Below, piece by piece: positions 19,434 through 61,546 of a DNA stretch of 64,000 nt. Origin of the DNA: Lepus europaeus. Its lineage: Eukaryota > Chordata > Mammalia > Lagomorpha > Leporidae. Within the stretch, counting starts at the first letter, position 1. The number at the start of each line of letters is the position of its first letter. Below the pieces are notes generated by a model. That model was given only the letters and a program-made list of their open reading frames with translations. It was not told the DNA's origin and searched no databases. The stretch lies in NCBI RefSeq assembly GCF_033115175.1, contig NC_084831.1, positions 14,609,138 through 14,673,137 of the forward strand, given 5' to 3'. Both the position numbers and the translations under genes were made by a program.

Positions 19434-19580
19434 CTCTACCCAGTCAAAGATCTGCTCATCATTCGCTTTATCCTCAATAATGAGTTTCTCGAGTCGCTTA
19501 TATAGCTCTTCAGCAGAGAGTTCTTTCTTTGAAAGTGCTTCAGAGACACAGGAACTATCAGACTCCATGAAGTCCAACCT
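19434..19580 (-). CDS. EIF4G3: EIF4G3 coding exon, start of W2 domain
   Basis: This 147-nt exon has phase 0 at both ends and 49 codons. It encodes RLDFMESDSSCVSEALSKKE, then the first W2 (eIF5C-type) helix ELSAEELYKRLEKLIIEDK, and ends IFDWVE. The acceptor is TTATGTTTCAG. The donor GAG|GTATAAAG departs from consensus at +4 and +5 and is the weakest in this set. Skipping would be in frame but would remove the start of the MNK-docking domain. Confidence 0.94.
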
Positions 19581-29039: not shown

Positions 29040-29715
29040 TAAAAGGTTTATTTATTTGAAAGGCAGAGTTACAGAGAGGGAGAGGGAGAAAGAGAGAGGG
29101 AGACAGGGAGAGGGAGAGGGAGACAGGGAGAAAGGGGAGGGAGACAGGGAGAGGGAGAGAGGGAGAGAGGGGAGGGAGGGAGAGAGGGAGAGAGGGGAGG
29201 GAGGGAGAGAGGAGGAGAGGGGGAGAGGGGGAGAGGGAGAGAGGGAGAGGGGGACAGGGAGAGGGAGAGGGAGACAGGGAGAGGGAGGGAGGGAGAGAGG
29301 GGAGGGAGGGAGAGGGAGAGAGGGGAGAGGGAGAGAGGGAGAGAGGGAGAGGGAGTGGGAGACAGGGAGAGTGGGGAGGGAGGGAGAGAGGGAGAGAAGG
29401 AGAGAGGGAGAGGGGGAGAGGGAGAGGGAGACCTTCCATTTGCTGTCAGAGTGAGATCTTCTACCCAGCTGGTTCACTCTCCAAATGGCTGCAACAGCAG
29501 GAGCTGGGCCAATTTGAAGCCAGGAGTCATGAGCTTTATCTGGGTCTCCCGCATGGGTACACGGACCCAAGTACCTGGGCCATCCCCTGCTGCTTTCCCA
29601 AGCACACCAGCAGGGAGCTGGATCAGAAGTGGGGAAGCCAGGATTCAAACTGGTGCCCAAACAGAATGCTGGTGCCTTGGGCTTTGGCTTAACCCACTAT
29701 GCTACAACACCAGCC
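29040..29715 (-). repeat. C-type SINE with a large internal GA-rich expansion
   Basis: Ordinary SINE ends (aaaggtttatttatttgaaa and acaacaccagcccc) enclose about 360 nt of purine repeat. Confidence 0.85.
29075..29432. repeat. (GGGAGA)n-type polypurine minisatellite
   Basis: Almost uninterrupted gagagggagagggagacagg-type units on the plus strand, a polypurine/polypyrimidine tract. Confidence 0.92.
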
Positions 29716-30562: not shown

Positions 30563-30661
30563 CTGCTCCAAGAGAAAATTATGTACATCTTCCCCTTCTG
30601 GTAAAAAGTCCATCCAGTTGAGGTCAGCCTCCCTCCACAAGGCTCCCACTTTCTTATGGCT
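30563..30661 (-). CDS. EIF4G3: EIF4G3 coding exon, end of MA3 domain
   Basis: This 99-nt exon (33 codons, phase 0 at both ends) runs from TTGTTTTAG to CAG|GTGAGT. It encodes [20 protein letters not shown] and [13 protein letters not shown], the closing helices of MA3. Because it is symmetric, skipping would preserve frame but cut the MA3 fold. Confidence 0.94.
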
Positions 30662-32571: not shown

Positions 32572-32935
32572 GGGCTGGTGCTGTGGCGTAGCAGGTAAAG
32601 CCGTCACCTGCAGTGCTGGCATCCCATATGGGCATCAGTTTGAATCCTAGCTGCTCCACTTCCAGTCCAGCTCTCTGCTATGGCCTGGGAAAGCAGCAGA
32701 AGATGGCCCAAGTCCTGGGGCCCCTGCACCCACGTGGGAGACCTGGAAGAAGCTCCTAGCTCCCGGCTTCGGATTGGCTCAGCTCTGGCCGTTGTGGCCA
32801 TCTGGGGAGTGAATCAGGGGGTGGAAGACTGACCTACCTCCCTCCCTCTCTCTCTGTCTCTGTCTCTCTCTCTCTCTGCCTCTGCCTCTCTGTAACTCTG
32901 CCTTTCAAATAAAAAATAAGTAGATCTTAAAAAAA
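32572..32935 (+). repeat. C-type SINE
   Basis: ggggctggtgctgtggcgta head and caaataaaaaataag tail with long CT run. Confidence 0.9.
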
Positions 32936-33237
32936 TTCAAATAAATTTAACTTTAGAATCTCATCGTGTGGAATCATTGGTGCCACCCGTTTATAATTAG
33001 ATTACCAGCCTATGATGCCAAAATAAGACTATTTAAGATTATCCTTACTCTGAAAAAGCAGATTAGTTTTTACTGAAACTTACTGGAAAGGATAAGTAGT
33101 AGAGCCATTTTGTTTTAAGAGAAGACAAAATTACCAACAGCAAATGAAACACACTTTTGAAATTACTTAGAATTTACCCAATGTAGGTGAGATTAGACAG
33201 TTCTTTCTCAAGATACTAGTCACCAGGACAAACATAC
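32936..33237. other. intron, nothing identified
   Basis: AT-rich DNA downstream (in transcription) of the microexon candidate. Confidence 0.4.
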
Positions 33238-33276
33238 CTCAGAAAGGAACTGGGCTGAAGCGGAGACCTTGCTCTT
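33238..33276 (-). CDS. EIF4G3: candidate in-frame microexon of EIF4G3 (39 or 36 nt)
   Basis: On the minus strand a pyrimidine-rich tract ends TATCCTCTGAAG and is followed by 39 nt encoding KSKVSASAQFLSE, then a good donor GAG|GTATGT. The flanking exons end and begin in phase 0, so inclusion adds exactly 13 residues inside MA3 between LCKQM and SHKKVG. A second AG three bases on (GAAGAAG) would give a 36-nt version, also in frame. Brain-specific, SRRM4-dependent microexons have been reported in EIF4G genes. Whether this is the same one is my inference, and splicing cannot be proven from DNA alone. Confidence 0.55.
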
Positions 33277-33396
33277 CTTCAGAGGATAAAAGGAAAGGGG
33301 ATTACTTGCACAGAGATGTGCTATTCACAGAGTGCAGGATCCCGACCACTGCCCTGGCTAGCATGCTGCTGGCCTGACACGCAGTTTAACACTCAC

Positions 33397-33478
33397 CATT
33401 TGTTTGCATAGAAGGTGCAATATTTCAGAAAGCAAGACCCCAGCTCTTCCAACAGGAAGTAAAGGTTTGCTAAATTCT
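33397..33478 (-). CDS. EIF4G3: EIF4G3 coding exon, MA3 domain
   Basis: This 82-nt exon follows TCTTTTACAG. A single A completes Val, then come 27 codons from EFSKPLLPVGRAGVLLSEIL to LLCKQM, ending exactly on a codon boundary before GTGAGT. Third positions are AT-rich, with only 8 of 27 codons ending in G or C, in sharp contrast with the last exon. The next intron contains the microexon candidate just 120 nt downstream in transcription order. Confidence 0.94.
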
Positions 33479-34372
33479 CTGTAAAAGATAGGGTTAACAG
33501 CGGTTAAGTACTTCTGAAGTTCTCTGTTCTAGAACAGCAGGTAAACAATATGTGCTCCCCACCTACCACCAAAAAATAACGAAAACAAAAAAAACAAAAA
33601 AAGCAAAACACCCCACACATTCCGTGCCACCCAAACAGCAGCAAGTCTCCAGGACATGGCCTACGTTGTTTTTGGAGAAGGAGTTCAGAAACCAGCAGTT
33701 CACCTTATGCTTCACGGAGAAGCCAAAAGGGGACTTTAAATTCCAGGATTTATAGTTGTGCTTCGTTTTACCCTAAGATTCTCATCATCTTTAATGTTCT
33801 GTAGTATGTTTTGTGAATGTCACAGACAAGGAACACAGCAGTGTGGAGAATCTGACTACATATACAGTTGCTGAGAGAAACACTAATGTTCTGAAGAACA
33901 AAGTATGGGAACTGCTGGTCTATACAAGGCAGCATCACTTCTCCACGCATGTCCAAATCCAGGAATGTTTGAGAGCTCAGTTCCTCTGAGTAGAATCATG
34001 AGCATGTGGCATGTGGGTGCCACAACCTGACAGGCTACATTGTGAGGAAGTAACTTCTTATAGTATTGGAGTAATGACAAACAAAAAGTCAGAGTAACAT
34101 TAAGTTTCCAGAGAGACTCATCTTCCAGTTATATGATTCTGGGGACATTGCTACAGTTACTGCTATGGTTGATAGAATACATATTGTCACGTGGTCTCCA
34201 CTAGAGCTTTAGCATAATGTCACATCTTTTCAGCAAAATCAGAGGTCTAAAAGAGTCACTGGCTGCAGACATCAGGCTCCAAGGGCAGTAAGGGGGAAGC
34301 ACTATGCCAGACAGCTGGCTGATGAGTTTTGTGTCAAATGAACTTGATATACATGCAACAAGGATAACTTAC
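33479..34372. other. intron, nothing identified
   Basis: Short EIF4G3 intron without SINE insertions; one of the least repeat-filled introns here. Confidence 0.5.
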
Positions 34373-34498
34373 ACAATAAGTTCTCTCATGGAGATTCCGC
34401 CTTCTTTTAACATGGGGGTAACCAGTTCAGCAAGGTACAACCAAATATGGGGAATATCAATGGCCATGTCATCTGCTAATTCTAAGGTTTCTGAGAAA
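34373..34498 (-). CDS. EIF4G3: EIF4G3 coding exon, MA3 domain
   Basis: This 126-nt exon lies between TTTTTCAG and a GTAAGT donor. After a 1-nt split Gly come 41 codons starting [20 protein letters not shown] and ending GGISMRELI, then GT of a split Val. The segment [15 protein letters not shown] is a hallmark of MA3 domains in eIF4G proteins. No frame disruption was seen. Confidence 0.94.
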
Positions 34499-34967
34499 CT
34501 GAAAAACAGCAGGGAAAACATTAACATGTAAATGTAATTCAAAAGTTAAGATTAAATAAAGATATCAAAAATCAAGCAACCAATGTGTATTAACCCACTC
34601 TGTTAGGCACTGGCCTAGGCATAACACAACCAGTAACCAATCAACTGTTTTCTTACATTTTGTATTAGTCTGGAAAAGAAAAAATGGAACAGACAAAAGC
34701 ATACTTGCAAACATGGCAATATACTCTGAAGAATACAAGCTATGGACCAGAGGGTAGTCAGAAAATACCTCTGTATGGAAGTGACCTTTAAGTTAAATGA
34801 CGAAAACAGACAGACATGTAAGGTTCTGGAGGAATGGCGATCCAATTTTACTCCAAATCTACAAAGAATCCTCAACACAGTAGATATCATAACCTCAGAG
34901 GCAGTCAGAGGCACTGACAAGACACATGGCAGACCAGACACAAGAGAAAAACGCAGCAAGTGTCTGA
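34499..34967. other. intron, nothing identified
   Basis: Contains chance ORFs on both strands; no supporting splice sites or family match. Confidence 0.4.
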
Positions 34968-35270
34968 CCTAGTAGCAGAACACTGGTTAGGATACTCATA
35001 TGCCGTACTTAAGAGTCCGGATTTGAGACCTAACTCTGTTCCTAATTCCAGCTTCCTCCTAATGAAAATCTTGGGAGTTGGCATGTGAGGGTTCAAGTGG
35101 TTAGGGCCCTGCCATTCATGGGGCTGAGAGGGGGCCTGGATTGAGTTCCAAGCTCCAGATGTCAGCCTGGCCCAGCCCCAGGCATTTGGGTAGTGGGTCA
35201 GAGGATGGGAGCACTCTCTGTTTGTTTCTCTTTTTCTGTCTGCCTCTCAAATAAAATAAAACAGAGTAAA
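34968..35270 (+). repeat. old SINE relative
   Basis: cctagtagcagaacactggt head and tgcctctcaaataaaataaa tail. Confidence 0.7.
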
Positions 35271-35550
35271 AAAGACAAAAATCCTCATCATTGAATACCT
35301 TATGATAGAGAAATAAACTAGATGGATATAAAAGAGTTTGACACATTATTAACACTACTACTACTACATGCTATAAACTATTATACCTTTAAAAAGAAAG
35401 TTAATGGTTTTGGGTTTTTGTGCTATGAAGTATAAACATTTCTCAATGTAAAGTTTGGGAATTAAATATAATTTGGAAAGACAAATAACAAAAGCTCCAT
35501 AGTTTTATTAGAGCTGAGAATCACAGCTATTCATTCAAGAGTACAAATTA

Positions 35551-35840
35551 GGGGCTTAAACCATTGCTTGGCAGAGTGGCATCACATATGGGAGTGCTGG
35601 TTCGAGTCCAAGATACTCCCCTTCCAAAGCTTCTTGTTAATGTGCCTGGGAAGGCAGCAGACACTGGGCCCCTGCCCCCATGTGGGAGATCTGGATGGAG
35701 TTTCTTGCCCCTGGCTTCTGCTGGCCCAGCCCTGGCTGTTGCAGCTATTTGGGGAGTGAACTGGAGGATGGAGACCAACCTCTCCCTGACTCTGTTGCTC
35801 TGCTCTTTCAAATGAATAAATCTTTAAAAAAAAAAAAAAG
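35551..35840 (+). repeat. old C-type SINE
   Basis: ggggcttaaaccattgcttg head and caaatgaataaatcttt tail. Confidence 0.8.
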
Positions 35841-61451: not shown

Positions 61452-61546
61452 CTTAGTGATTTTCAGGAATTTTGAGGGGTCCAGGACCCGACTGTTCTTG
61501 GCCCCTTGTACAGTGTTCCACCCACCTTCGTCCACTCTCTGGACTC
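61452..61546 (-). CDS. EIF4G3: EIF4G3 coding exon, linker after MIF4G
   Basis: This 95-nt exon opens with GA completing a codon from an exon outside the window and then encodes 31 residues from VQRVDEGGWNTVQGAKNSR to FLKITK. The acceptor is TTCCTGCAG and the donor AAG|GTGAGT, both strong. It lies in the flexible linker between the MIF4G domain and the MA3 domain. The reading frame upstream of the acceptor continues open for a while, but that is intron and not coding. It is the most 5' exon found in the window. Confidence 0.92.

Follow-up and report, generated by a model that had tools for sequence, protein, structure and literature searches.

A candidate in-frame 39-nt cassette exon beyond the MA3 core of EIF4G3 in Lepus europaeus

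Introduction

Does EIF4G3 of Lepus europaeus carry a short alternative exon between two of its constitutive C-terminal exons, or have an acceptor, a donor and 13 open codons come together there by chance? The question is raised by a 39-nt unit in a window of 64,000 nucleotides (the whole stretch of DNA analysed here), which a preliminary description read as a 39- or 36-nt microexon inside the MA3 domain and likened to the neural microexons under SRRM4 control. Short exons of this kind do exist in the gene family. EIF4G3 possesses a 21-nt neural microexon known as exon 6a (PMC7697094), the microexons of EIF4G1 and EIF4G3 are described in a review as overlapping prion-like domains (PMC10551640), and Eif4g3/EIF4G3 microexons have been reported in both circular and linear RNA, the accessible text giving no position for them (PMC8355340). 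EIF4G genes do have neural microexons, as the preliminary description said, but the unit studied here lies at a different site from those whose position is given in the accessible parts of these sources.

Results

The C-terminal third of EIF4G3 lies on the minus strand

We found by tblastn with an eIF4G1 query that the minus strand of the window encodes the C-terminal third of EIF4G3. The exon map below was drawn with the C-terminal sequence of human eIF4G1 as query and refined by nearby splice sites, and its coordinates are approximate.

~61546-61452, minus strand: constitutive EIF4G3 exon coding GVQRVDEGGWNTVQGAKNSRVLDPSKFLKITK (tblastn and splice sites)
~58272-58158, minus strand: EIF4G3 exon coding ADALRSSASSLNRFSALQPAPSGSTSSTPLEFDSRRTLTR, a tblastn segment with a weak acceptor (score 0.51)
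~50858-50740, minus strand: EIF4G3 exon (tblastn and splice sites)
~45321-45149, minus strand: EIF4G3 exon (tblastn and splice sites)
~34498-34373, minus strand: EIF4G3 exon (tblastn and splice sites)
33397..33478, minus strand: constitutive EIF4G3 exon upstream of the candidate, 82 nt, ending ...EFSKPLLPVGRAGVLLSEILHLLCKQM (homology and frame)
30563..30661, minus strand: constitutive EIF4G3 exon downstream of the candidate, 99 nt (homology and frame)
~19580-19434, minus strand: EIF4G3 exon ending ...QIFDWVE (tblastn and splice sites)
~11848-11767, minus strand: EIF4G3 exon (tblastn and splice sites)
~9128-8982, minus strand: EIF4G3 exon (tblastn and splice sites)
~4449-(stop), minus strand: last EIF4G3 exon, closing with the stop codon (tblastn and splice sites)

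Spliced together, the five exons lying between 50858 and 30563 form a single open frame of 199 residues, which confirms their joins. The upstream exon (33478-33397) closes in phase 0 with ...CTA TGC AAA CAA ATG (...LLCKQM), and the downstream exon (30661-30563) opens in phase 0 with AGC CAT AAG. The direct join of these two flanking exons gives a gapless alignment with human eIF4G1 (1ug3_A residues 129-188, E 5.3e-19; likewise 6zmw_g and 8oz0_2), whereas adding the 13 candidate residues produces a single 13-residue gap at the junction against 1ug3_A and 6zmw_g. The normal protein is thus the one without the insert, whose addition would leave the reading frame intact. Downstream of exon 30661-30563, the intron also contains an imperfect GAGAGG-type tandem array of about 360 bp (29073-29432) with a 151-bp higher-order unit.

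An in-frame exon-like unit between two phase-0 junctions

Between these two exons, positions 33276-33238 of the minus strand hold the 39 nt AAGAGCAAGGTCTCCGCTTCAGCCCAGTTCCTTTCTGAG, 13 open codons in phase 0 that code KSKVSASAQFLSE. The stretch is preceded by CCCCTTTCCTTTTATCCTCTGAAG and followed on its 3' side by GTATGT, so that its acceptor reads ...CCTTTTATCCTCTGAAG and its donor GAG/GTATGT, and it stands 120 nt from the upstream exon and 2,576 nt (33237-30662) from the downstream one. Acceptor AG, donor GT, a length divisible by three and an open frame in the phase of the host junctions are all present. The preliminary description is confirmed in its sequence, coordinates, frame and splice dinucleotides, and the claim of an in-frame 39-nt exon-like unit of EIF4G3 on the minus strand between two phase-0 junctions is borne out. 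Its parts are as follows.

33238..33276, minus strand: candidate 39-nt cassette exon coding KSKVSASAQFLSE, phase 0-0 (sequence, frame, site scores, chance test)
33277..33278, minus strand: AG acceptor (AAG; tandem AAGAAG), score 5.91
33274-33275, minus strand: second tandem AG, which would give 36 nt, score 0.26
33281..33300, minus strand: pyrimidine tract CCCCTTTCCTTTTATCCTCT (sequence)
33232..33237, minus strand: donor GTATGT after GAG, score 4.70
33302, minus strand: A of AAGTAAT as a possible branch point, 26 nt before the candidate exon, one of several weak candidates
33308..33310, minus strand: UGC at -34, the SRRM4 motif of the preliminary description, not diagnostic (motif scan)

The A at 33302 was picked by the general branch-point consensus, and the zone from the AG at -30 to the AG at -2 is free of AG. 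The base at -3 of an AAG acceptor is unfavourable. A 36-nt form is indeed allowed by the tandem AAGAAG, as had been proposed, but because its acceptor scores only 0.26 the 39-nt form is the stronger of the two.

Site strength and chance expectation

Splice sites were scored with weight matrices of approximate, unfitted human frequencies. On this scale the candidate acceptor was equalled or beaten by 1.5% of the 4,869 AGs on the minus strand, and the donor by 0.8% of the 3,321 GTs. The acceptor also exceeded 6/11 and the donor 5/10 of the sites next to the constitutive exons of the window, these being the best-scoring site near each homology end rather than annotated sites, and the candidate's splice sites are accordingly mid-range among the real exons of EIF4G3. 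On the same matrix the donor at 19434 (GAG/GTATAA) scores -1.05, weaker than that of the candidate.

When the unmasked window was searched for open stretches of 9-60 nt in phase 0 whose acceptor and donor each at least equal the candidate's in strength, two were found on the minus strand and none on the plus strand. The other of the two, 61546-61526, was rejected, its acceptor being that of the constitutive exon at 61546. With exons masked (12 pieces, 62.4 kb; the masks are homology-based and approximate, may miss poorly conserved exons, and leave a last piece that takes in the 3' UTR and beyond), the candidate is the sole such stretch on the sense strand, and the antisense strand has none. 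On the sense strand, phase 2 yields the candidate once more and phase 1 a 30-nt stretch at 55502-55473; the antisense strand yields none in either phase. The 30-nt stretch, though its sites are stronger than the candidate's, was set aside because it overlaps C-SINE matches. Relaxing both thresholds by 1, 2 and 3 units in phase 0 gives 2, 3 and 4 stretches on the sense and 0, 2 and 2 on the antisense strand. Simulated DNA of Markov order 3 (120 runs) leads us to expect 0.27 such stretches per 60 kb, and orders 2 and 5 (200 runs each) 0.21 and 0.23. The expectation drops to 0.12 per 60 kb when the AG-free zone is also required, and is about 0.01 for the candidate's own intron with both sites, where the next-best stretch lies more than 4 units lower in summed score.

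Ranking by the summed score only is more permissive. On the unmasked strands 9 minus- and 6 plus-strand stretches reach the candidate's sum, and after exon masking, in phase 0 and with neither site allowed a negative score, the same holds for 7 stretches on the sense strand, among them the candidate, and for 4 on the antisense strand; 100 simulations predict 0.77 per 60 kb and 0.035 for an intron as long as this one. Of the other sense stretches, 5/6 sit in listed C-SINE matches (48351-48340, 28010-27999, 24886-24875, 18626-18615 and 12798-12787) and were set aside, and the sixth, 26023-25988 (36 nt), by eye resembles an old C-SINE, so that the candidate is the lone high-sum stretch outside SINE-like sequence on the sense strand. 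Since the thresholds are the candidate's own, the chance test is suggestive only: within its intron the candidate stands out, but one such find in a 64-kb read scanned for exon-like stretches is no great surprise.

No overlap of the candidate with C-SINE matches or the best MIR matches

A blastn search with an approximate rabbit C-SINE consensus (E <= 1e-10) found 51 matches in the window (1-64000), a number that fits lagomorph DNA and makes a human origin improbable; none of them overlaps 32872-35577, the region of the candidate and two constitutive exons. The 20 best matches to an approximate MIR consensus likewise lie elsewhere, and in a self-blastn of the window (124 rows, E <= 10) nothing but the self-match and one row of 17 bases (E 5.5) falls on the candidate. 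Exonisation of a C-SINE or MIR transposon was therefore rejected, there being no overlap with these matches and no dispersed self-match beyond the 17-base row. As a separate observation, in each of five C-SINE matches a site resembling an acceptor and one resembling a donor enclose 12 open nt and together score at least as high as the candidate's pair, and the C-SINE family may bring ready-made splice-like sites.

The insertion site lies past the MA3 core

In the 199-residue spliced protein the Pfam MA3 match (PF02847) covers residues 22-132, and the candidate junction falls after residue 166, that is 34 residues beyond the match; the same distance was obtained with an inexact version of the protein. 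Solved PDCD4 chains, isolated MA3 domains included, align no further than residue 134, and eIF4G1 (1ug3) aligns along residues 13-199. Considering that the junction is past both the MA3 match and the PDCD4 alignment, the insert would fall outside the MA3 core, and its earlier placement inside the MA3 domain does not hold. We take the site to be the C-terminal part of the wider HEAT-2 region, the second eIF4A-binding region. HEAT-2 is described as poorly conserved and not essential, with a stimulatory role having been proposed for it, and the 48S complex is reported to keep its second eIF4A when HEAT-2 is missing (PMC10948362). Given this poor conservation and dispensability, we infer that an insert would more likely tune the factor than break it.

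Regulatory motifs around the candidate

The SRRM4 motif is a UGC a short way from the acceptor, in the pyrimidine tract or beside it. Upstream of the candidate acceptor UGC occurs at -34, -60, -87 and -107, and none was found in -25..-1; the nearest one sits 5' of the pyrimidine tract. A UGC is present within 50 nt of 161/246 acceptor-like minus-strand AGs (35/246 in -40..-26 and 126/246 in -25..-1), so that the UGC some 30 nt upstream, although present as described, carries little weight and is uninformative for SRRM4. With the motif lying upstream of the tract, lacking from -25..-1 and common at other AGs, the proposed SRRM4 control does not find support here. GCATG occurs once upstream (-90), and neither GCATG nor TGCATG is present in the 250 nt downstream. 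CTAAY, a short motif frequent by chance, appears in the downstream intron at +42, +172 and +238.

Discussion

Taken together, the frame-preserving open stretch at a phase-0/phase-0 junction, the splice sites typical of the gene and its uniqueness in the masked sense DNA suggest that the candidate is an alternative cassette exon of EIF4G3, a reading to which we give a probability of roughly 0.46. Most EIF4G3 transcripts would skip such an exon, and some tissue would include it to some extent. The longer protein would gain KSKVSASAQFLSE, or SKVSASAQFLSE if the second tandem AG were used, between the segment ending LLCKQM and that of the downstream exon. This point lies past the Pfam MA3 core, within the C-terminal portion of the second HEAT region that binds eIF4A, where the added segment would be expected to tune eIF4A binding or the HEAT-2/HEAT-3 geometry and not to abolish the fold.

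The main competitor, which we hold to be very nearly as probable, is a decoy pseudo-exon in which acceptor, donor and 13 open codons arose by chance and are ignored by the spliceosome. The AAG acceptor, the want of a diagnostic regulator motif (no UGC in -25..-1, no GCATG in the 250 nt downstream), a window-wide expectation of 0.21-0.27 with both sites, and the 7 sense and 4 antisense stretches found by sum against 0.77 expected all speak against a cassette exon and fit a decoy, as does the fact that we found the exon mentioned nowhere in the accessible EIF4G3 splicing literature. By our estimate, such per-60-kb expectations imply genome-wide chance examples at least as numerous as real exons of this size, 1,480 alternatively spliced brain-expressed micro-exons being reported in the accessible part of one survey (PMC4317164). 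A decoy sits less easily with the 0.01 (both sites) to 0.035 (sum) expected for this intron, with sites that are mid-range among those of the gene's real exons, and with the C-SINE origin of 5/6 of the other high-sum sense stretches. Per intron, real alternative exons this short are rare and look-alikes arising by chance roughly as rare, which keeps the two readings close; the summed-score control lowered our figure for the cassette exon from 0.48 to 0.46 and raised that for a decoy by as little. We favour the cassette exon, narrowly and by judgement rather than computation, because its sites match the real ones of the gene and because EIF4G3 carries other short alternative exons.

How a cassette exon here might be regulated is more doubtful. 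A neural microexon under SRRM4/SRRM3 control, one form that the cassette exon could take, would agree with the neural microexons of EIF4G1 and EIF4G3 (PMC7697094, PMC10551640) and with the UGC at -34, but we consider it very improbable: that UGC lies 5' of the tract and has counterparts at most acceptor-like AGs, the site differs from that of the 21-nt EIF4G3 microexon, and at 39 or 36 nt the candidate is over the limits of 3-30 nt (PMC7697094) and 30 nt (PMC7821500), though within the 51-nt limit of another survey (PMC4317164), as these appear in the accessible texts. Somewhat less improbable, while still unlikely, is an exon included in muscle or heart, possibly the 'novel, muscle-specific exon' reported for mouse Eif4g3 (PMC4801060). 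Microexon inclusion linked to muscle does exist (PMC7821500), and the downstream CTAAY motifs would fit, chance occurrences of so short a motif being often expected; however, the accessible text on the mouse exon gives no position and names it in one sentence with a cerebellar microexon, possibly at an N-terminal site (PMC4801060). The broader proposal of a regulated 39/36-nt exon, possibly muscle- or neuron-included, distinct from the N-terminal EIF4G microexons and adding 12-13 residues near the end of HEAT-2, we also regard as unlikely, if less so than either of these specific forms.

Comparison with known short exons places the candidate apart from each of them. EIF4G3 exon 6a belongs to the same gene and is likewise a short frame-preserving cassette exon, but it is 21 nt long and has been assigned, with the EIF4G1 microexon, to prion-like domains (PMC10551640), whereas the 39-nt candidate belongs to the C-terminal third of the gene, beyond the MA3 core; on the accessible description (PMC7697094) an identity of the two was rejected. 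The neural microexon of EIF4G1 (Gonatopoulos-Pournatzis et al. 2020) is a short exon of a paralogous eIF4G scaffold, at a position that, as cited in other papers, differs from the candidate's. Human eIF4G1 chains (1ug3, 6zmw and 8oz0) have no insertion at the homologous position, with which skipped isoforms remain compatible. Micro-exons of up to 51 nt resemble the candidate in a length divisible by three and a pyrimidine-rich tract, but in the alternative ones TGCATG, the RBFOX motif, is over-represented in the 3' intronic flanks, unlike in the candidate's 250 nt downstream (Li et al. 2015, PMC4317164, accessible part). In the accessible main-text literature on EIF4G3 splicing we found no description of a 39-nt exon at this junction, nor was it mentioned in the available portions of PMC12064062, PMC11283458, PMC12626424, PMC8911335, PMC3850090 and PMC7821500, or in the titles and abstract openings on eIF4GII splice variants; literature searches with the peptide KSKVSASAQFLSE and for alternatively spliced MA3 isoforms of EIF4G3 gave no match. 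Annotation of human 22-51-nt exons being said to appear nearly complete in the part of the survey available (PMC4317164), a conserved version of the exon is probably already annotated somewhere.

If the candidate is not spliced, it shows clearly how persuasive a decoy exon may appear when a single genome is consulted. If it is spliced, an eIF4G scaffold from a family already linked to synaptic translation would have a second short cassette exon, and a tissue-specific isoform could change helicase recruitment. A regulated exon at this site could then mean a second, independent splicing control over eIF4G3, one that acts on the C-terminal eIF4A-binding half of the factor and not on its prion-like segment.
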